A DNA stretch of 31,914 nucleotides. Source: a virus. Of this stretch, positions 4,485-19,876 are shown in pieces (the first letter of the stretch is position 1; every line of letters starts with the position of its first letter). Where the stretch lies: the IMG/VR virus record IMGVR_UViG_3300025778_000056, positions 1-31,914 of that record; one strand, written 5' to 3'. The translations under genes and the position numbers were made by a program. Below the pieces are notes generated by a model, which made no database searches, was not told the origin of the DNA, and saw only the letters and a list, made by a program, of their open reading frames with translations.

Positions 4485-4637
4485 ATGGACAAAAATAAAT
4501 TTATTAAACTTGCTGGCTCACAAGTTGAGCTTGGGCGTATTCTAGGAATAAAGCAATCAGCTATTAGCCAATGGAAAACAGTACCCCAAGCAAGAATTTG
4601 GCAATTGAAAGTCTTAAAACCTGAATGGTTTTTGTAA
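4485..4637 (+). CDS. Cro-like repressor (P22 Cro type)
   Basis: This 50-residue protein (MDKNKFIKLAGSQVELGRIL...) is almost entirely one helix-turn-helix. SQVELGRILG (12-21) forms the first helix, the turn follows, and KQSAISQWK (23-31) is the recognition helix; after it comes VPQARIWQLKVLKPEWF. The pattern SQ-x-x-L-(A/G)-x-x-L-G-I-x-Q-x-A-(I/V)-S-QWK and the final W(L)E(I)-like helix match the P22 Cro / YdaS-like group. It would bind operators in the divergent promoter region and turn down early transcription. No good ribosome site precedes the ATG, and the -10 box ends only six bases upstream, which suggests leaderless translation. No CI-like partner gene is in the window. Confidence 0.78.
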   Translation: MDKNKFIKLAGSQVELGRILGIKQSAISQWKTVPQARIWQLKVLKPEWFL

Positions 4638-4701
4638 ATTCAGGTTATACTTTATTTGGAACAAGGCTAGATGAGGACTGATCCCCTTATCGAAAAGAGA
4701 C

Positions 4702-4753
4702 TACAGACCCCTCCTGCCTTTGTTTTCTTCAGGGTCTGACTTTAGGGTCTGTA
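4702..4753 (+). promoter_or_regulatory. Leader hairpin with two alternative partners at the replication-gene start
   Basis: TACAGACCC (4702-4710) is perfectly complementary to GGGTCTGTA (4745-4753), which ends at the base before the ATG and covers the weak AGGG ribosome site. Its inner part CAGACCC (4704-4710) can instead pair with an upstream copy, GGGTCTG (4732-4738). The two pairings exclude each other and would hide or free the ribosome site. Confidence 0.45.
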
Positions 4754-5470
4754 ATGCACTATTACCAGTTTCATATTGGTGACTACAAGTCACATACGCA
4801 TCATTTAAATGTCATAGAAGATTGTGCTTTACGCAGACTTCTTGACCATTACTACCTCCATGAATCTCCCATAAAGCAACGCAATATTGCTAGACAAATT
4901 GGGATGTTGGAATATGAAGCAGAAGTTTTGTCCATTTTGGATGAGTTTTTCATTTCCACAGAAAATGGCTTCGTAAATCCAAGGGCAGATGAGGAAATTG
5001 CCAATTACCACTCTAAGGTTGACCAAGCATCTAGAGCTGGGAAAGCATCTGCTCAACGTAGGTTGAACACTCGTTCAACAGAAAGTGAACAGACGTTCAA
5101 CGCCCGTTCAACGGGCGTTCAACCAACCATTAACCATGAACCATTAACCAAGAACCATATATATAGTGATTTTGAAAAAATACTGAAAACAAAGCGAATA
5201 CCCTTAACTGACACACTCATAGCATCTATTCAACTTGAGGCTGACAAGGCTAAATGGTCAATCGAGGATGCTTTAAAAGAATGCTGTATTCGAGGATGGT
5301 CCACATTTAAGGCAGACTGGGTTATCAAGCCTGACATCATTCACCAGACAGTTCCTAGCAAACAAGGCAGAGACCCAACCCTTATAAAGCTAGAAAATGA
5401 TGCCAAAAACGCAGTTTCAATGCCTGATGAGATAAAAGCTAAATTTAAGATGATTAAGGGAAAAGTATGA
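4754..5470 (+). CDS. Phage replication protein, DUF1376 (YdaU-like)
   Basis: The 238-residue protein opens with a DUF1376 domain (about 1-80): MHYYQFHIGDYKSHTHHLNVIEDCALRRLLDHYYLHE, the HxGDYxxxTxHLxxxEDxAxRRLLDxYYLxE pattern of YdaU-type proteins. A low-complexity linker (about 95-135, rich in Asn, Thr, Arg) is encoded by the iteron cluster. The C-terminal domain (about 140-200) has a conserved DALKECCIRGWSTFKADWV segment, common in phage replication proteins next to helicase loaders. This layout (origin DNA inside the gene, between two domains) resembles lambda O. No helicase or loader gene is nearby, so host DnaB is probably used. The stop overlaps the next gene as ATGA. Confidence 0.75.
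   Translation: MHYYQFHIGDYKSHTHHLNVIEDCALRRLLDHYYLHESPIKQRNIARQIGMLEYEAEVLSILDEFFISTENGFVNPRADEEIANYHSKVDQASRAGKASAQRRLNTRSTESEQTFNARSTGVQPTINHEPLTKNHIYSDFEKILKTKRIPLTDTLIASIQLEADKAKWSIEDALKECCIRGWSTFKADWVIKPDIIHQTVPSKQGRDPTLIKLENDAKNAVSMPDEIKAKFKMIKGKV
5062..5200. repeat. Iteron cluster and AT-rich stretch: candidate replication origin
   Basis: GTTCAAC occurs at 5073-5079, 5095-5101, 5106-5112 and 5117-5123. The spacing is 22, 11 and 11 bases, so all copies are in phase with an 11-base period. An inverted copy, GTTGAAC, is at 5062-5068, and AACGCCCGTT-C-AACGGGCGTT (5099-5119) is a perfect palindrome around one base. Two copies of CCATTAACCA follow at 5127 and 5141. From about 5158 the DNA becomes AT-rich (ATATATATAG, then runs of A). 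This is the layout of lambda-type origins inside the initiator gene. Function is inferred. Confidence 0.6.
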
Positions 5471-6549
5471 AATTAATATCGACAATTGAACAAGACGAGA
5501 TTACTAAGAAATTATCACAATCATTTGATTATGAATTTGATGGTTCAGTTTCTTTTCAAGTACCCCTATTTGATGTTCCTGAACAATTTCAAATAGGCTT
5601 AATCGTAGGAGCTTCTGGATCAGGCAAGTCTAGTATCCTAAATACGATTGGTAAGGCTTCTAAAATCGAATGGAACAGCTCCAAAGCAATTTGTAGTCAT
5701 TTTGCTACCTCAGATGAGGCTCAAGACAAATTAAACGCTGTAGGGCTTAATTCAATCCCTTCATGGCTTAAACCTTATCATGTTTTGTCCACAGGAGAAA
5801 GGTTTAGGGCAGATTTGTCTAGATCATTGGTTGACAATGCAATCATTGATGAATTTACCAGTGTTGTTGACAGAAATGTAGCCAAGTCTTGCTCTTATGC
5901 AATCAATAGGTACATCAGAAAGTCAAACATTCAAAAAATGGTGTTTGCTTCTTGCCATTACGACATCATAGAATGGCTTCAACCAGATTGGGTTTTTGAT
6001 ACCAATACACACCGACTTACAGTCGGAAGGGGGTTAGAAAGGCCATCTTTACAGTTGGAAGTCGTTCCTTGCAATACCGAGGCATGGACAATCTTTTGCA
6101 ACCATCACTATCTCTCATCAAAGCTCAATAAAGGTTCACGATGTTGGCTCGCAACATGGGAAAACCAAGTTGTTGGATTTGCCTCAGCTATCCCTTTTCC
6201 CTCTGGATCACTGAAAAACGCATGGAAAGGCCACAGAACAGTGGTTTTACCTGATTTCCAAGGATTAGGCATTGGTGTACGATTAAGTGATGCAATAGGT
6301 CAAATATTTGTAAATGAGGGTTACAGATATTTCAGCAAATCAAGTCATGTCAGATTAGGTGAATATAGAAACAACAGCCCTAAATGGAGACCAACAGCTC
6401 ACAACATGAAAGACAGAAAACAATACTATAAAAAATTAAACGATATAGCCAATGGCGTATCTACAACTAAAGACTTTTATTCATCTGAATTGCGTAAAAA
6501 ACATGCTTCAAGGATTTGTTATTGCCATGAATACATCGGAATTTGTTGA
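5467..6549 (+). CDS. Soluble ABC ATPase fused to a GNAT-type acyltransferase
   Basis: The first half of this 360-residue protein is an ABC-type ATPase: Walker A GASGSGKSS (48-56), signature LSTGE (107-111), Walker B AIIDEF (125-130) and switch His164 in FASCHYD. There are no membrane spans and no permease gene, so it is not a transporter. The second half (about 200-310) is GNAT-like, with HHYLSSKL (213-220), a strand pair WLATWENQVVGFASAIP, and the acetyl-CoA-binding type loop VVLPDFQGLGIG (259-270), followed by SSHVR...NNSPKW. Phage Mom, which modifies adenine in DNA, has a GNAT-derived fold, and ABC-GNAT fusions are found in some phages. A DNA-modification role is therefore a reasonable hypothesis, not proven. 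The start overlaps the replication gene's stop; AAGGG precedes it. Confidence 0.8.
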   Translation: MKLISTIEQDEITKKLSQSFDYEFDGSVSFQVPLFDVPEQFQIGLIVGASGSGKSSILNTIGKASKIEWNSSKAICSHFATSDEAQDKLNAVGLNSIPSWLKPYHVLSTGERFRADLSRSLVDNAIIDEFTSVVDRNVAKSCSYAINRYIRKSNIQKMVFASCHYDIIEWLQPDWVFDTNTHRLTVGRGLERPSLQLEVVPCNTEAWTIFCNHHYLSSKLNKGSRCWLATWENQVVGFASAIPFPSGSLKNAWKGHRTVVLPDFQGLGIGVRLSDAIGQIFVNEGYRYFSKSSHVRLGEYRNNSPKWRPTAHNMKDRKQYYKKLNDIANGVSTTKDFYSSELRKKHASRICYCHEYIGIC

Positions 6550-6703
6550 ACACTATGCAAATTTAGCCCTTAAGCCTGAATGGATTGATTACGTCAGGCA
6601 TCAGGTTAGGGAAATGGAAAAACACAGAATGTTTACAGGCTTAGGTAAAGCAGTTGCCCAAAGAATTAAGGAAATGAATGTTTCACGTCACATTCAAAGT
6701 TGA
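6527..6703 (+). CDS. 58-residue helical protein, unknown function
   Basis: From the ATG at 6527 the product reads MNTSEFVEHYANLALKPEWIDYVRHQV and continues with a basic helical part ending NVSRHIQS. It overlaps the end of the ABC-GNAT gene by 23 bases and the start of the RusA gene by 26 bases, so it is locked into the rightward operon. A start at 6503 is possible. AAGGA lies 12 bases before 6527, slightly far. The KPEWIDYVRHQVREME segment reminds me of small phage proteins near replication genes without known function. Confidence 0.6.
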   Translation: MNTSEFVEHYANLALKPEWIDYVRHQVREMEKHRMFTGLGKAVAQRIKEMNVSRHIQS

Positions 6704-7097
6704 TGGTCCTCCTCATGGCAAAGGCAGACCAAGGTTTGCCAGAATGGGCAATTTTGTCAGAACTTACACTGATGACAAAACCAAGTTTTATGAGGATTTA
6801 GTCAGGCTTTCTGCTCAAAAATCAATGGGTATGTCTGAACCTCTTAAAACAGCTTTAGACGCATTTATTTATATCTCCCTGCCTATTCCATCAAGTTACT
6901 CTAAAAAACGCACTGAGGCTTGTTTAAGTGGCTTAGAAAAGCCTATTAAGAAGCCAGACATTGATAATGTTGCTAAATCAGTGCTGGATGGGTGCAATGG
7001 AGTAATTTTTGTATCAGATTCTCAGATTGTTAATTTACATATCACCAAGACTTATGGTGTTCCTCATGTTGAGGTATTGATTAGGGAGACAGAATGA
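6678..7097 (+). CDS. rusA: RusA-like Holliday junction resolvase
   Basis: This 139-residue protein shows the RusA pattern: an N-terminal strand with GPPHGKGRPRFAR (10-22) and the acidic core KKPDIDNVAKSVLDGCNG (91-108) followed by VSDSQIVNL (112-120). Asp94, Asp96 and Asp114 correspond to the metal-binding aspartates of E. coli RusA. It cuts four-way DNA junctions symmetrically, which resolves branched DNA before packaging or after recombination. AAGGAA precedes the ATG. It overlaps both neighbours and belongs to the replication operon. Length is normal for the family (about 120-140). Confidence 0.9.
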   Translation: MFHVTFKVDGPPHGKGRPRFARMGNFVRTYTDDKTKFYEDLVRLSAQKSMGMSEPLKTALDAFIYISLPIPSSYSKKRTEACLSGLEKPIKKPDIDNVAKSVLDGCNGVIFVSDSQIVNLHITKTYGVPHVEVLIRETE

Positions 7098-7201
7098 ATA
7101 CTTTTTTAATTATTCTGATACTTTTTTTTGGATTATTTTTTGTATTGATGATCTTAATTGCATCATGGGCAGTGATTGAGGAGCTATCCAATGACACCTG
7201 A
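7094..7201 (+). CDS. 35-residue single-span membrane protein
   Basis: The ATG at 7094 overlaps the RusA stop as ATGA and has AGGGAG at ideal spacing. The product MNTFLIILILFFGLFFVLMI... is hydrophobic from residue 4 to 27 and ends in an acidic tail (EELSNDT). It is a short inner-membrane protein. The stop lies 11 bases past the next gene's ATG. Role unknown; strong start signals make it a credible gene. Confidence 0.68.
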   Translation: MNTFLIILILFFGLFFVLMILIASWAVIEELSNDT

Positions 7202-7517
7202 AAGACATGCCCAATATATTTACGACAATGCTACCCAATATGGCTGGGCTAAATCAAACAGAATTGGTGTTGAACTTAAACTAAAAACAGCTAAGGCCAT
7301 GATTATGAAACAAGTAGCTGAGGAATTTAACCAGATTTCAGCTCAAGAAAGGGAGGCTTTAATTCATCCTGAGTACACCAAGCTAATCAATGATCTGATG
7401 CAAGCAGTAGCCATAGAGGAAGAACTCAAGTACAAGTTAGAGGCTTCTAGGCTGTCTATTGACATTTGGAGGACTAGAGAGGCATCTGAGAGACTTGGTA
7501 TAAGATCACATGAATGA
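7191..7517 (+). CDS. 108-residue helical phage protein, unknown function
   Basis: The product starts MTPERHAQYIYDNATQYGWAK and is helical throughout, with a coiled-coil-like central part (residues about 60-95: LINDLMQAVAIEEELKYKLEASRLSI) and IWRTREASER near the end. GGAG eight bases upstream supports the ATG at 7191. I recognise similar small proteins in phage replication regions without a known function. It overlaps the preceding membrane-protein gene and the following HNH-like gene (ATGA). Confidence 0.65.
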   Translation: MTPERHAQYIYDNATQYGWAKSNRIGVELKLKTAKAMIMKQVAEEFNQISAQEREALIHPEYTKLINDLMQAVAIEEELKYKLEASRLSIDIWRTREASERLGIRSHE

Positions 7518-16026: not shown

Positions 16027-16470
16027 TTACAACAATTTGGTGAATACTTTATCAATACATTTAAAGCCCATAAATTCAAACAACTTTGAATTATCCAAAT
16101 GAACCTTTGTGTTGTAAACAATCCTATTCACACCCATTTCTTTTAACAGTTTTTCAGCAAACTGAAACATTCTTAAACCATTTCTGCCTTTTCGATATTC
16201 TTTTTTTAAAAAATAAATATCTTCTGAAGCAGTCAAACAAGTTTTGTAATGCAAATGTGGAGAAATAAAGAAAATCACATAACCAATAAGCTCATCATCT
16301 TGTTTACAAGTTATGAACTTCATTCTTCCACCTTGCCACAAATGCAAGTAAACATCCCAATCTGGGTCTAATGGAAACTCTTTAGTTACTGACAATTCCT
16401 CATAATGCTCAACAATGACCTTTTTTAGGTCTTCCAAATTTTCTAACCAATCATCATCTTTTAGAATCAT
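16027..16470 (-). CDS. GNAT-family acetyltransferase
   Basis: The 147-residue protein has the GNAT layout: an N-terminal helix-loop, a strand with MKFITCKQDDELIGYVIFFI (about 50-69), a strand EDIYFLKKEYRKGRNGLRMF (about 83-102) holding the acetyl-CoA-binding loop R-K-G-R-N-G, and a last strand/helix with NSKLFEFMGFKCIDKVFTKLL. Acetyl transfer to an unknown acceptor is the expected activity. Genes of this type occur within the head/tail block of several podovirus genomes; whether the target is a virion protein or a host molecule is unknown. It overlaps its upstream neighbour as ATGA. Confidence 0.8.
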   Translation of the reverse strand: MILKDDDWLENLEDLKKVIVEHYEELSVTKEFPLDPDWDVYLHLWQGGRMKFITCKQDDELIGYVIFFISPHLHYKTCLTASEDIYFLKKEYRKGRNGLRMFQFAEKLLKEMGVNRIVYNTKVHLDNSKLFEFMGFKCIDKVFTKLL

Positions 16471-16688
16471 AGATTGTAAAAAGGCACTTTGTACTGTTTA
16501 CCATTTACAGTCACTTGCATGTACCCTGCTGGTGTTGAAGGTAGAGCTGGTGTTGTAGTGGTTGCTGAGAAATTTAGCATGTTCAAGAAAAATTGTTGCC
16601 AAGGCCTTGTAGGTCTTTTGGAACTTGCATCCAAAAACTCAGCTTGTGGGTAAGGATTAGTCTGTGGTGAGCCATAGGTATTAGCCAT
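16467..16688 (-). CDS. Small virion-region protein, unknown function
   Basis: The 73-residue product starts MANTYGSPQTNPYPQAEFLD, has a central RPTRPWQQFFLNMLNF, and ends in a beta-like hairpin (YMQVTVNGKQYKVPFYNL). It sits between the gp10-like protein and the GNAT gene with overlapping codons on both sides (TAATG before, ATGA after). Small proteins with the phrase (R)PWxxFFxxLxx are found next to tail genes in many podoviruses and may be structural. No function known. Confidence 0.6.
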   Translation of the reverse strand: MANTYGSPQTNPYPQAEFLDASSKRPTRPWQQFFLNMLNFSATTTTPALPSTPAGYMQVTVNGKQYKVPFYNL

Positions 16689-19600
16689 TAGTTCTCTCCT
16701 TGACTAGCCTTGAGGTTAGCAGAAATGATCGTAGCATTCACTGGATCAGTTACCACTACCTCAAAAATCTTGTCCCTAGACCATCCTAAACGCCTCCAGA
16801 TGGCACGATTCTTGTACTTGCCAATTTTACCAATGGATACCCAGTGCTCCTTAGACCATGTTGATCCACCATCATTGGACCATCTGAGCATGGCTTTAGG
16901 ATCAACACCTTGTGAACCTTCAAAGGCAGGACTAGGAATATTGTAGGCAGGAAACTGTAAAGTCAAAGCATTCAGCAAGGCAGTAGCTGTTTGAGCACTT
17001 GTAACTTGATGGTTTGCTGTGTACTGTGTTGGATAGCCTCCAGAGCCATTTACAGGTGTTCCTACAGTGACTTGAGTTGTGGTAACCCTGTTAGTCAAAG
17101 CAGTAGTTAAATTGACTGCAAAAGGCTGTATTGACGTTGGAGGTGCAAGTGTGTCGTTAGTGTTGTACCAAATGTAGAAGTGGCACTTGTTAGTGTAAAA
17201 GCTAGGAATGGTTTCCCATGTAGCTAACTGATAGTAAGGACTTGCTGTCAGTGGTGTTGTGTTTGCTGTGTAGGTGTTGATCAATCCTACACCAAATGAT
17301 CCAATAGGATTCGTAGCATCACCAGCACCAATGGTTACTAAGTTCATTGGACCATACAAATTCATACATGCTTTAGGCCATGTGCCATTTGTCGTAGCTT
17401 GTGCCATGACACCTTCAATTGCAAGGTAACCACCAGCACTGTTGCCAGCTACCATAAGGCCAAATTGTGCTACTTGTTGTTGTAGACTTGCCCACAAAGC
17501 ATTTTGACTTGGTGCTCCTAAATAACCAGCATTAGGATTTAACAAGAAATTGATAACTTGAGCAATGTCATTTACGTCATTAGGATAGTCACCAGATGGA
17601 GTTAGCCTGTAGTTTGTAGAAATAACGACATAGTTAGCTAACACAATAGGATTGTAAATAGCAGTGTCACTAGCCTTGTCACCACCACTCCATCCACCAC
17701 CATGTATCCAAAGGACAACTCCATTAGGCATTTGACCATTCTTGTTGACAGCATCCCATGAGCTTGGGCTAATGATGTCTACTTTTTGAAGTGGGTCAGT
17801 CCCATAGGGTACGTCAGAAATTGTTGCACCTAAAGAAGGAGCACCTAAAGAAACTCCTGAAAAAGAAGTTGGAGTAGAGGATGGTATAGAGTAGCCTTGG
17901 CCTGTTTGAGAATTTCCACTGATTGCGTATCCTGAGATGGCAATGCCAGCTATGCCTGAAGTGGTATAACTTGCATTTGGGTTTGACAATCCCACTGCTG
18001 GCATAAACTGAATCTGCAATTCCTCAAAATATTGACGTTGCAAATCAGAAACCAAATGTGGTGCTCTCCTTAGTCTCCTAATCTCTTGACCATTGTCAGT
18101 GTAGTTATTAGGGTCTAACTCGTACAAATTACCATTTTGGTAGTCACCAACATAAACTAAACCATTAAATACAGCACAACAGTTGCCACGATGTCTGTGG
18201 TAAACATTATTATTATCTACAGCAAGCCACTTGTGCCACATGCCTGTGGTGTTGTCCCATACCCATGTCAAGTCAATACTTGGAAAGGTAATTACATAGC
18301 ACTCATGGCCTTCTAGTTGATAGGTCCAAGCAATAGCATCTGAGATGTTTTGGTTGACAAGGGTGTTTTCAACTGCGTGAGTGGAGATGCGAGTAGGCAC
18401 ATACCCATTCATCATTACAACTTGGCCTTGGCCTCGTTGGTTTCTAGAGAGGTATGCAAAGGAGTTGCCAACACGAGAGACTGAGAATTTGGCAATGATG
18501 CCATGCTGTGTGGAGGTGCCGGGGATTCGCTGGAAAGGAAACGGAAAGCTCCCCACATCCACCCACACCTCACTCGATACCTCACCTAGTAAGTACACCT
18601 CACGATGGTCAACAATTAGTGATACCAAGTTATCTGGAGCACCATCCTTGCTACTAAACTGCAAAGGAGCTGACAATGTGCTCAACAAATTACTCGATCC
18701 CCATTGCTGTGTATTTGGCCTGTTATAGACAAATATATTGTCCACAATGTCCACCACATCAGCACCTGTAAACGCTCCATCTGTGCTTGGCAAAATCGAA
18801 AAAGCAGAAGCAGTCAGTGTTGATAAGTTACCAAGTGGTGATATGTTAGCAAGGGCAGATGCTCCTGAACCTGATCCACCACTAAAATTCAAAGCAGGGT
18901 TTGATGTATAAAATGATCCACCATTAGCAATTGAATAATCATTGTTAAGGCTGAACGTCAAGGTTATAGAAGCACCTTTGCCTGTTCCACCACTGAATGA
19001 TGTAGCACCACTTGGAGCAACTGTGTAAGTTCCTACATTGTAAATAGAGACACCAGTAATCACACCACTAGAAACTGTTGTGACCTTGAGCTGACAAGCA
19101 GTTGTGTAAGTTCCACCAAAGCCAGTGATGATGTCACCAACTGTGTATCCTGTTCCACCAGATGTAATTGTTGTAGACACAACTCCTATTGAGTTCCAAG
19201 TCACTGATGCAACAGTACCACCAAAAGGAGGGTTAGCAATTGTGACTGAAGGGACTGTTGTATAACCTGTGCCAGCATTTAATAGATTAATTGCTACAAC
19301 ACTGCCATTGGTTACATAGTTGTTGATGGAGTAAAGACCTAAACCATTTCCACTTGTAGGGACTGAGGTAATGATCGTGTTTGGAGGTATGTTTGTGCCT
19401 GTGATGGTCTGACCAACTACCAAAGGTCCAGAAATAATGCCTGTGACATTGATCTGATAACCAGAGATATTACCAATGAAAGAAGTGGTAATGTAGGAGC
19501 TGATGTAAACACTGTACCTGTTAACACCATCTGTGATCATCACATAAAGGCCATTGTCAGCAATGCCAACTCTGCCTGTTGTAGTGGTGAGGTTACCAAG

Positions 19601-19876
19601 GGTAAAAAGGTTGCCAAGAGTATCAAGAGCATAAACACCAGAGCCACAGACTGCAATCAAGTATTTACCACCAGAAAGGGTGCGTAGGCCTCGAACTTCA
19701 GCAGTTTGGGGAAGGGCAGTTAACAGCGTGAGACCCGGCGTAGGGTAGAGTGCCACCACCCCCCTTTGACCTGCTTGCTTGAGTGGGTCTATTTCAGGGC
19801 GAAAGTTAATACACTCCTGATCATCTTGGTAGATGGATGGAGAAGTATACGATGGGCCAACAAACCCAAAGTCCAT
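16688..19876 (-). CDS. P22 gp10-like tail protein with inserted esterase domain
   Basis: The outer parts of this 1062-residue protein match the P22 gp10 (packaged-DNA stabilisation) family: MDFGFVGPSYTSPS...DDQECINFRPE at the start, VWVDVGSFPFPFQRIPGTSTQHGI (437-460), YQLEGHECYVITFP (519-532) and the C-terminal MLRWSNDGGSTWSKEHW (996-1012). Two insertions enlarge it. Residues about 132-345 form a beta-rich, Gly/Thr/Ser repeat region. Residues about 675-980 form an alpha/beta-hydrolase: HGGGW oxyanion motif (725-729), nucleophile elbow GNSAGG with Ser813, and candidate Asp908 and His956. The insertion lies between QFMPAVGL and the DPKAMLRWS segment, which normally are adjacent in the family. 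The protein would sit in the tail and expose an esterase, perhaps removing acyl groups from host surface glycans. That role is inferred. Confidence 0.85.
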   Translation of the reverse strand: MDFGFVGPSYTSPSIYQDDQECINFRPEIDPLKQAGQRGVVALYPTPGLTLLTALPQTAEVRGLRTLSGGKYLIAVCGSGVYALDTLGNLFTLGNLTTTTGRVGIADNGLYVMITDGVNRYSVYISSYITTSFIGNISGYQINVTGIISGPLVVGQTITGTNIPPNTIITSVPTSGNGLGLYSINNYVTNGSVVAINLLNAGTGYTTVPSVTIANPPFGGTVASVTWNSIGVVSTTITSGGTGYTVGDIITGFGGTYTTACQLKVTTVSSGVITGVSIYNVGTYTVAPSGATSFSGGTGKGASITLTFSLNNDYSIANGGSFYTSNPALNFSGGSGSGASALANISPLGNLSTLTASAFSILPSTDGAFTGADVVDIVDNIFVYNRPNTQQWGSSNLLSTLSAPLQFSSKDGAPDNLVSLIVDHREVYLLGEVSSEVWVDVGSFPFPFQRIPGTSTQHGIIAKFSVSRVGNSFAYLSRNQRGQGQVVMMNGYVPTRISTHAVENTLVNQNISDAIAWTYQLEGHECYVITFPSIDLTWVWDNTTGMWHKWLAVDNNNVYHRHRGNCCAVFNGLVYVGDYQNGNLYELDPNNYTDNGQEIRRLRRAPHLVSDLQRQYFEELQIQFMPAVGLSNPNASYTTSGIAGIAISGYAISGNSQTGQGYSIPSSTPTSFSGVSLGAPSLGATISDVPYGTDPLQKVDIISPSSWDAVNKNGQMPNGVVLWIHGGGWSGGDKASDTAIYNPIVLANYVVISTNYRLTPSGDYPNDVNDIAQVINFLLNPNAGYLGAPSQNALWASLQQQVAQFGLMVAGNSAGGYLAIEGVMAQATTNGTWPKACMNLYGPMNLVTIGAGDATNPIGSFGVGLINTYTANTTPLTASPYYQLATWETIPSFYTNKCHFYIWYNTNDTLAPPTSIQPFAVNLTTALTNRVTTTQVTVGTPVNGSGGYPTQYTANHQVTSAQTATALLNALTLQFPAYNIPSPAFEGSQGVDPKAMLRWSNDGGSTWSKEHWVSIGKIGKYKNRAIWRRLGWSRDKIFEVVVTDPVNATIISANLKASQGEN
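16937..17854 (-). other. Inserted alpha/beta-hydrolase (esterase) domain
   Basis: This stretch encodes residues about 675-980 of the gp10-like protein. It begins in a linker, enters with VPYGTDPLQKVDIISP (a start typical of acyl/feruloyl esterase-like hydrolases), has HGGGW, NYRLTP, GNSAGG, then WYNTNDTLAPP with the Asp and YTANHQ with the His. All catalytic parts are present in the right order. Boundaries are approximate. Confidence 0.8.
18842..19483 (-). other. Inserted beta-rich repeat region in the gp10-like protein
   Basis: Residues about 132-345 interrupt the family's N-terminal beta-propeller-like part. First comes a unit of about 60 residues (NISGYQINVTGIISG...GTNIPPNTIITS) that resembles the insertion in the gp4-like protein. 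Then come at least four looser units of the GxGYTxxPxVxI kind (around 202, 241, 282 and 320). Probably surface decoration or an adhesive module; function unknown. Confidence 0.6.

Follow-up and report, generated by a model that had tools for sequence, protein, structure and literature searches.

A single open reading frame in a 31,914-nt stretch of viral DNA, hereafter the window, encodes an ABC ATPase fused to a GNAT domain, and this protein is probably a phage DNA-modification enzyme. Its most likely reaction is the ATP-dependent transfer of an acyl group to a base of phage DNA. We infer this function from gene exchange in one slot. The gene lies between a DUF1376 gene and a RusA resolvase gene, where relatives of the virus hold other DNA-modification enzymes, so the most likely role of the fusion enzyme is to modify the viral DNA itself as a protection. 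A survey of homolog neighborhoods, proposed as a check in a preliminary description of the window made from the letters alone, uncovered this slot exchange, the replacement of Mom in Porphyromonas phages, and ParB-like partners of the fusion protein.

Domain make-up and predicted structure

The preliminary description had read a full ABC ATPase core (Walker A, LSTGE, Walker B, switch His) and a GNAT-like domain with HHY and QGLGIG in this chain, and both readings are borne out (Table 1). The ABC ATPase half comprises residues 1-190, including a D-loop, SVVDR, at residues 132-136, and the GNAT half comprises about residues 192-360. The Pfam model Acetyltransf_1 (GNAT) matches with an E value of 9.4e-8 and 32.8 bits against a cut-off of 20.7, and ABC_tran matches with 23.0 bits, under its cut-off of 25. 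Membership among the ABC ATPases is established by the Walker A, the signature, the Walker B with its glutamate, the switch histidine, and the nucleotide-binding domain (NBD) fold, and membership in the GNAT superfamily by the Pfam match above the curated cut-off together with the fold. A PHROGs family whose function is not known (phrog_11143) matches the protein end to end (E 2.4e-110). By eye, no membrane or permease part of an ABC transporter was recognized in the 360-residue chain. Among 130 nonredundant homologs, K54, S108, G110, D128, E129, and H164 of the ATPase half and Y215, R257, P262, G266, and W307 of the GNAT half are invariant, and conservation of this kind suggests that both the ATPase and the transferase are functional.

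Table 1. Positions in the window of the fusion gene, its motifs, and the borders of its slot
Feature	Positions	Strand	Evidence
DUF1376 gene, left slot border	4754..5470	+	PF07120, E 1e-16
ABC ATPase-GNAT fusion gene (P0001)	5467..6549	+	ATG start, 360 aa
Exchangeable cassette; TAGT glycosyltransferase cassette instead in near-identical virus L381	5472..6545	+	flanks 96-98% nt identical, no match inside
Walker A GASGSGKS, residues 48-55	5608..5631	+	G48, G51, G53, K54 identical in 130/130 homologs
ABC signature LSTGE, residues 107-111	5785..5799	+	S108, G110 in 130/130
Walker B and catalytic Glu NAIIDE, residues 124-129	5836..5853	+	D128, E129 in 130/130
Switch histidine H164	5956..5958	+	130/130
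GNAT domain, residues 192-358	6040..6540	+	Pfam above cut-off; fold match Z about 13
HHYL motif, residues 213-216	6103..6114	+	H214 in 129/130, Y215 in 130/130
Acyl-CoA pyrophosphate loop QGLGIG, residues 265-270	6259..6276	+	Q265 in 128/130, G266 in 130/130, G268 in 125/130
Small conserved backbone ORF between cassette and RusA	6527..6703	+	read from in-frame ATG; L381 has a counterpart before its GNAT gene
RusA resolvase, right slot border	6678..7097	+	PF05866, E 2.3e-29

The whole chain was modeled with AlphaFold2 from 35 sequences (the window protein and viral homologs), giving two domains with a pLDDT of 85.0 and a pTM of 0.64. In fold searches of this model, residues 1-190 resemble ABC NBDs (best Z 14.1, rmsd 2.8, 163 residues aligned) and residues 193-358 resemble GNATs (1y9k_D, Z 13.5, rmsd 3.8, 140 residues aligned). 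When the GNAT half was modeled alone with 58 sequences (pLDDT 91.9), the top matches were again classical GNATs, 1y9k_D (Z 13.2) and RimI (5isv, Z 12.7), and the modeled half looks like the classical acetyl-CoA type.

The preliminary description had also brought up Mom-type base-modifying enzymes and suggested comparing the structure with Mom and with classical GNATs. The comparison agrees with the classical side, which matches best; the Mom structure 8bv8 is not among the matches listed for the GNAT-half searches, an absence that counts against nothing. Nothing substantiates a relationship to Mom beyond shared membership in the GNAT superfamily. Pfam gives no match of the fusion protein to Mom (PF25680) up to an E value of 10, and hhalign comparisons return local P values of 0.01-0.1 with probabilities of 0.6-4%. 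A profile (A3) set against 13 close Mom sequences reached a probability of 0.6% in the wrong register; against 37 diverse Mom sequences, HHYL fell locally in register with the HYS of Mom, at a nonsignificant P of 0.01-0.04. By Pfam, the window protein is not a Mom, and the profile comparisons show no significant similarity between the two.

The fold matches bear on the strongest competing explanation, in which the target of the GNAT half is a protein of the host or the phage, as RNA polymerase is for the phage Rac enzyme, and the ABC half only regulates or positions the GNAT half. The best matches of the GNAT half are mostly enzymes that acetylate proteins or small molecules, RimI and SpeG among them, and phage GNATs that act on RNA polymerase have been described (PMC7824862, in excerpt). 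Even so, we regard a protein substrate as unlikely: the gene swaps with DNA-modification enzymes in its slot and with Mom at the mom position, and ParB-like genes pair with ABC-GNAT in relatives, as described below.

Exchange with DNA-modification genes

The fusion gene had been placed beside a replication gene and before RusA, and this arrangement holds: the DUF1376 gene, whose replication role is putative, overlaps the start of the fusion gene by 4 nt, and one small ORF separates the latter from RusA downstream. To define the slot between these borders, we sampled 160 loci, namely the best 80 of 221 DUF1376 stretches and the best 80 of 252 RusA stretches. Both flanks were present in order in 72 of them, and merging of identical slot sequences before counting left 54 distinct slots, a set biased toward relatives of the window. 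Slots with no ORF of at least 140 aa were scored as empty. Occupants were identified by Pfam or PHROGs for cluster representatives and by sequence clustering for the other members; the Mom cluster was assigned with a model built from four Mom sequences.

Eighteen slots are empty and 36 are filled. Mom occupies 16 and a C5-cytosine methylase 10, three of these with Vut_1; the remainder hold Vut_1 with a queuine-transglycosylase-like gene (one), a TET-associated glycosyltransferase (TAGT; two), an N6/N4 methylase (one), ABC-GNAT (one), and other genes (five: DnaB-like in two, one PAPS-reductase-like, and two of no known kind). Known or predicted DNA-modification enzymes thus account for 30 of the 35 occupants besides ABC-GNAT. 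The proposal, made in advance of this survey, that the fusion protein might be a DNA-modification enzyme with phage DNA as its substrate, which it may protect, gains support from a slot shared with Mom, methylases, a glycosyltransferase, and a transglycosylase. ABC-GNAT is found in only one of the 54 distinct slots, so for the window lineage the argument rests on the identity of the slot. DNA-modification genes number 30 inside the slots (60,292 bp) versus one outside (208,336 bp), a count skewed by the use of models that were themselves derived from slot occupants.

Exchange within one virus species is seen with contig L381. Its flanks are 96-98% identical at the nucleotide level to positions 4559-5471 and 6664-7300 of the window, and between them lie a TAGT glycosyltransferase and a GNAT gene, with no ABC-GNAT. 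In L461 the right flank is 96% identical to the window and TAGT is present; no DUF1376 was found there. Base composition gives no sign of a foreign origin of the window's cassette (37.8% versus a mean of 41.1%, SD 4.0). A conserved 81-aa ORF with no family found precedes TAGT in both viruses (L381:3375-3617 and L461:2249-2491); the copy in L381 was considered as a candidate for the ParB tail described below and rejected, as the tail model gives no match.

With five of the 36 filled slots lacking a DNA-modification assignment, the DUF1376-RusA slot also offers a route to unknown genes of this kind. One 346-aa slot protein (L463:2473-3513) has no Pfam or PHROG match and, judged by its company, is a candidate new DNA-modification enzyme. 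The PAPS-reductase-like protein (phrog_424) lies at L447:4262-5128. Elsewhere in the window, a second, stand-alone GNAT gene (16027-16470, minus strand, 147 aa, PF00583 E 4.2e-7) sits among structural genes, and a 1062-aa structural-type protein (16688-19876, minus strand) contains a stretch that by eye resembles an alpha/beta hydrolase.

A second exchange was observed in the Porphyromonas phages 008a and 014a, which are Mu-like (transposase, MuB, Gam). They align over nearly their whole genomes in blocks that are 93.6-99.4% identical, the last being 86.3% identical and ending at 32468 and 32591, respectively. Beyond it, 008a carries ABC-GNAT and a formyltransferase, whereas 014a carries a Mom-family gene (PF25680, E 5.9e-56). 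The mom gene of phage Mu sits at the right end of its genome (35877-36602 of 36717), and in the P. gingivalis Mu-like phages the ABC-GNAT family replaces Mom at the mom position. In other phages the two co-occur. Of 161 viral loci (81 in a first set, including the window's own, and 80 in a second), 9 have a Mom homolog next to ABC-GNAT or close by in the sampled DNA, confirmed by Pfam in five representatives (L350, L038, L059, L065, and L320). Aeromonas phage PX29 has both genes, a Mom homolog at 36309-36881 and ABC-GNAT at 53140-54318. In some phages, then, Mom and ABC-GNAT replace each other and in others they occur together, a pattern consistent with each making its own DNA modification. 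Near-identical phage pairs that differ in ABC-GNAT versus Mom make the question directly testable by DNA comparison.

Spread of the family and its partners

The ABC-GNAT family is widespread among viruses and among bacterial contigs that contain phage genes. By tblastn, 66 phage records contain matches; the two viral sets comprise 80 loci of 249 confirmed stretches and another 80 of 322, and genome contigs yielded 472 confirmed stretches, of which 80 loci were used. This repeated finding in viral, phage, and genome contigs indicates that the ORF at 5467-6549 is not a product of chance. The two halves are separate adjoining genes in P335, Javan141, MismyG, and Oenococcus unk162. Deposited phage records label the family "ABC transporter", "iron siderophore transporter" (the ATPase half), or "hypothetical".

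Most genome loci include a ParB-like gene, which lies directly upstream of ABC-GNAT in 66 of 80 by a position rule (six of the remaining 14 have no upstream room) and anywhere in the locus in 70 of 80 by model matches. It is present in 12 of 18 phage loci, of which L087 has the tail alone, and in 10 of the 80 loci of the second viral set. A model search found neither a ParB-like gene nor its tail in the window or in the 80 loci of the first viral set, and the window protein does not fit the subtype of ABC-GNAT with a ParB-like partner. In a quick tree, the window falls in a viral branch of 62 rows (support 94), 61 of them without ParB, so the absence is old in the window lineage.

About 40 aa at the C terminus are common to the ParB-like partners; a model of this tail gives matches in 69 of 80 genome loci and 13 of 18 phage loci. 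In Komp_PAO1_1 and Porphyromonas phage 008a, the tail alone is left, as a tiny ORF just before ABC-GNAT, and in L124 ParB, ABC, and GNAT form one chain that the tail model matches weakly (E 0.0088). The tail may dock on the ABC part. Genes of 42 and 49 aa at L216:32675-32803 and L218:22265-22414 consist of the partner's tail only, and the record annotates that of L216 as an "acr candidate". Apparent ParB-ABC fusions in L150, L151, L160, L176, and L052 were rejected on inspection of the sequences as open-frame read-through, and only L124 was kept. In phage MenE, a ParB-like gene abuts Mom, and the tail model does not match it. The ParB-like partners at L085:3911-4522 and L093:2884-3402 are annotated "DNA modification methylase"; both match the ParB-partner model, and Pfam finds ParB_N in that of L085. 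The ParB-like gene adjoins ABC-GNAT in Gordonia phage Axumite, and an HNH endonuclease gene separates the two in Gordonia phage AnClar (L099:1-2315).

A formyltransferase gene follows ABC-GNAT in 4 of 18 phage loci (L087, L088, L092, and L099); none follows it in the 80 genome loci or the 161 viral loci. ASCH domains, which are predicted readers of modified bases, occur near ABC-GNAT in MismyG and Javan141.

An ABC ATPase joined to an effector is a common defense layout, and family members turn up frequently in genome contigs that contain phage genes. Both facts would suit a defense or abortive-infection factor that excludes other phages, with the ABC ATPase as sensor in control of a GNAT toxin directed at tRNA or ribosomes. 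We consider such a role quite improbable, however: the loci are viral contigs or, in genome contigs, frequently include terminase and portal genes, no partner resembling an antitoxin was seen in them, and the genes that replace ABC-GNAT in the slot are DNA-modification enzymes.

Proposed activity and relation to known systems

Our data allow a mechanism to be proposed for modification of phage DNA by the fusion protein. The ABC ATPase half, its catalytic motifs intact, would probably dimerize on ATP, and the dimer may grip or distort duplex DNA. With acyl-CoA as donor, the fused GNAT half would then acylate, and probably acetylate, an exocyclic base amine, presumably N6 of adenine or N4 of cytosine, and the acylated phage DNA would no longer be cut by host nucleases. 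Help probably comes from the ParB-like protein with its short conserved tail in many relatives and from a formyltransferase in a few phages; the window lineage would work without an adjoining ParB-like protein or formyltransferase. More tentatively, ABC-GNAT may be the core of an ATP-driven system that acylates (acetylates) the bases of double-stranded phage DNA, a DNA counterpart of the logic of TmcA and an alternative to Mom. The system would take two forms. One combines ParB tail, ABC, and GNAT as separate chains or with two or all three of them fused, and in Mu-like and Gordonia phages it gains a formyltransferase that provides a second chemistry; the other is the self-sufficient version in the window. 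If this is true, acylated bases made by an ATP-driven acetyltransferase are a new class of phage DNA modification.

TmcA offers a precedent for an ATPase-GNAT chain that acts on a base, and DpdB for a ParB-like ATPase that aids a base modifier. TmcA, in which a GNAT and an ATPase are fused, produces ac4C in tRNA (PMC12187516, in excerpt), and this speaks for an ABC-based counterpart that acetylates RNA rather than DNA. Such an enzyme is nonetheless very improbable: the slot partners act on DNA, and both the ParB-like partners and the proximity of terminase or RusA suggest DNA as the target. Enzymes of the TmcA/Kre33/NAT10 type likewise combine an ATPase and a GNAT in one chain and act on a nucleic-acid base, but their ATPase is helicase-type and their substrate RNA, whereas the ATPase of the window protein is of the ABC type by motif and fold; Pfam gives no match of the fusion protein to the TmcA/NAT10 families up to an E value of 10. 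The Dpd system includes a ParB-like ATPase, DpdB, that helps a base-modifying enzyme (PMC12839542, in excerpt), and the ParB-like partner may have a similar part in relatives of the window protein; DpdA is a transglycosylase, however, and the window has no ParB-like gene.

The catalytic residues of Mom are its HY motif and an arginine. The window protein has an HY motif and a conserved arginine in similar places, and the two families occupy the same slots. They differ in that the window protein has retained the QxxGxG CoA loop, which the Mom alignment does not show, and has an ATPase of its own. Mom of phage Mu (PF25680, structure 8bv8) belongs to the GNAT superfamily (PMC7824862, in excerpt).

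The closest known counterpart is a prediction. Excerpts from PMC7824862, citing Iyer et al. 2013, state that earlier work had predicted an uncharacterized acyl modification of a DNA base by a GNAT coupled to an ABC ATPase, and name Tenacibaculum phage pT24 as an example; the DNA-modification idea of the preliminary description is therefore not new. No experimental test of the family was found in the literature searched (subscription papers and preprints were outside its scope), and that literature likewise yielded nothing on the slot exchange, the common tail, or the association with a formyltransferase, some of which the 2013 paper may contain. The pT24 record matches at a single place, over 88% of the window protein with 41.8% identity (E 7e-69). 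The window protein, an ABC ATPase coupled to a GNAT and homologous to the pT24 example, is a new member of this predicted family. The domain pair is the same as in the predicted system, but the window version has no ParB-like neighbor and sits in the DUF1376-RusA slot. Newer here are the evidence from that slot, the ParB-like partner with its conserved tail in relatives of the window protein, and the formyltransferase partner.
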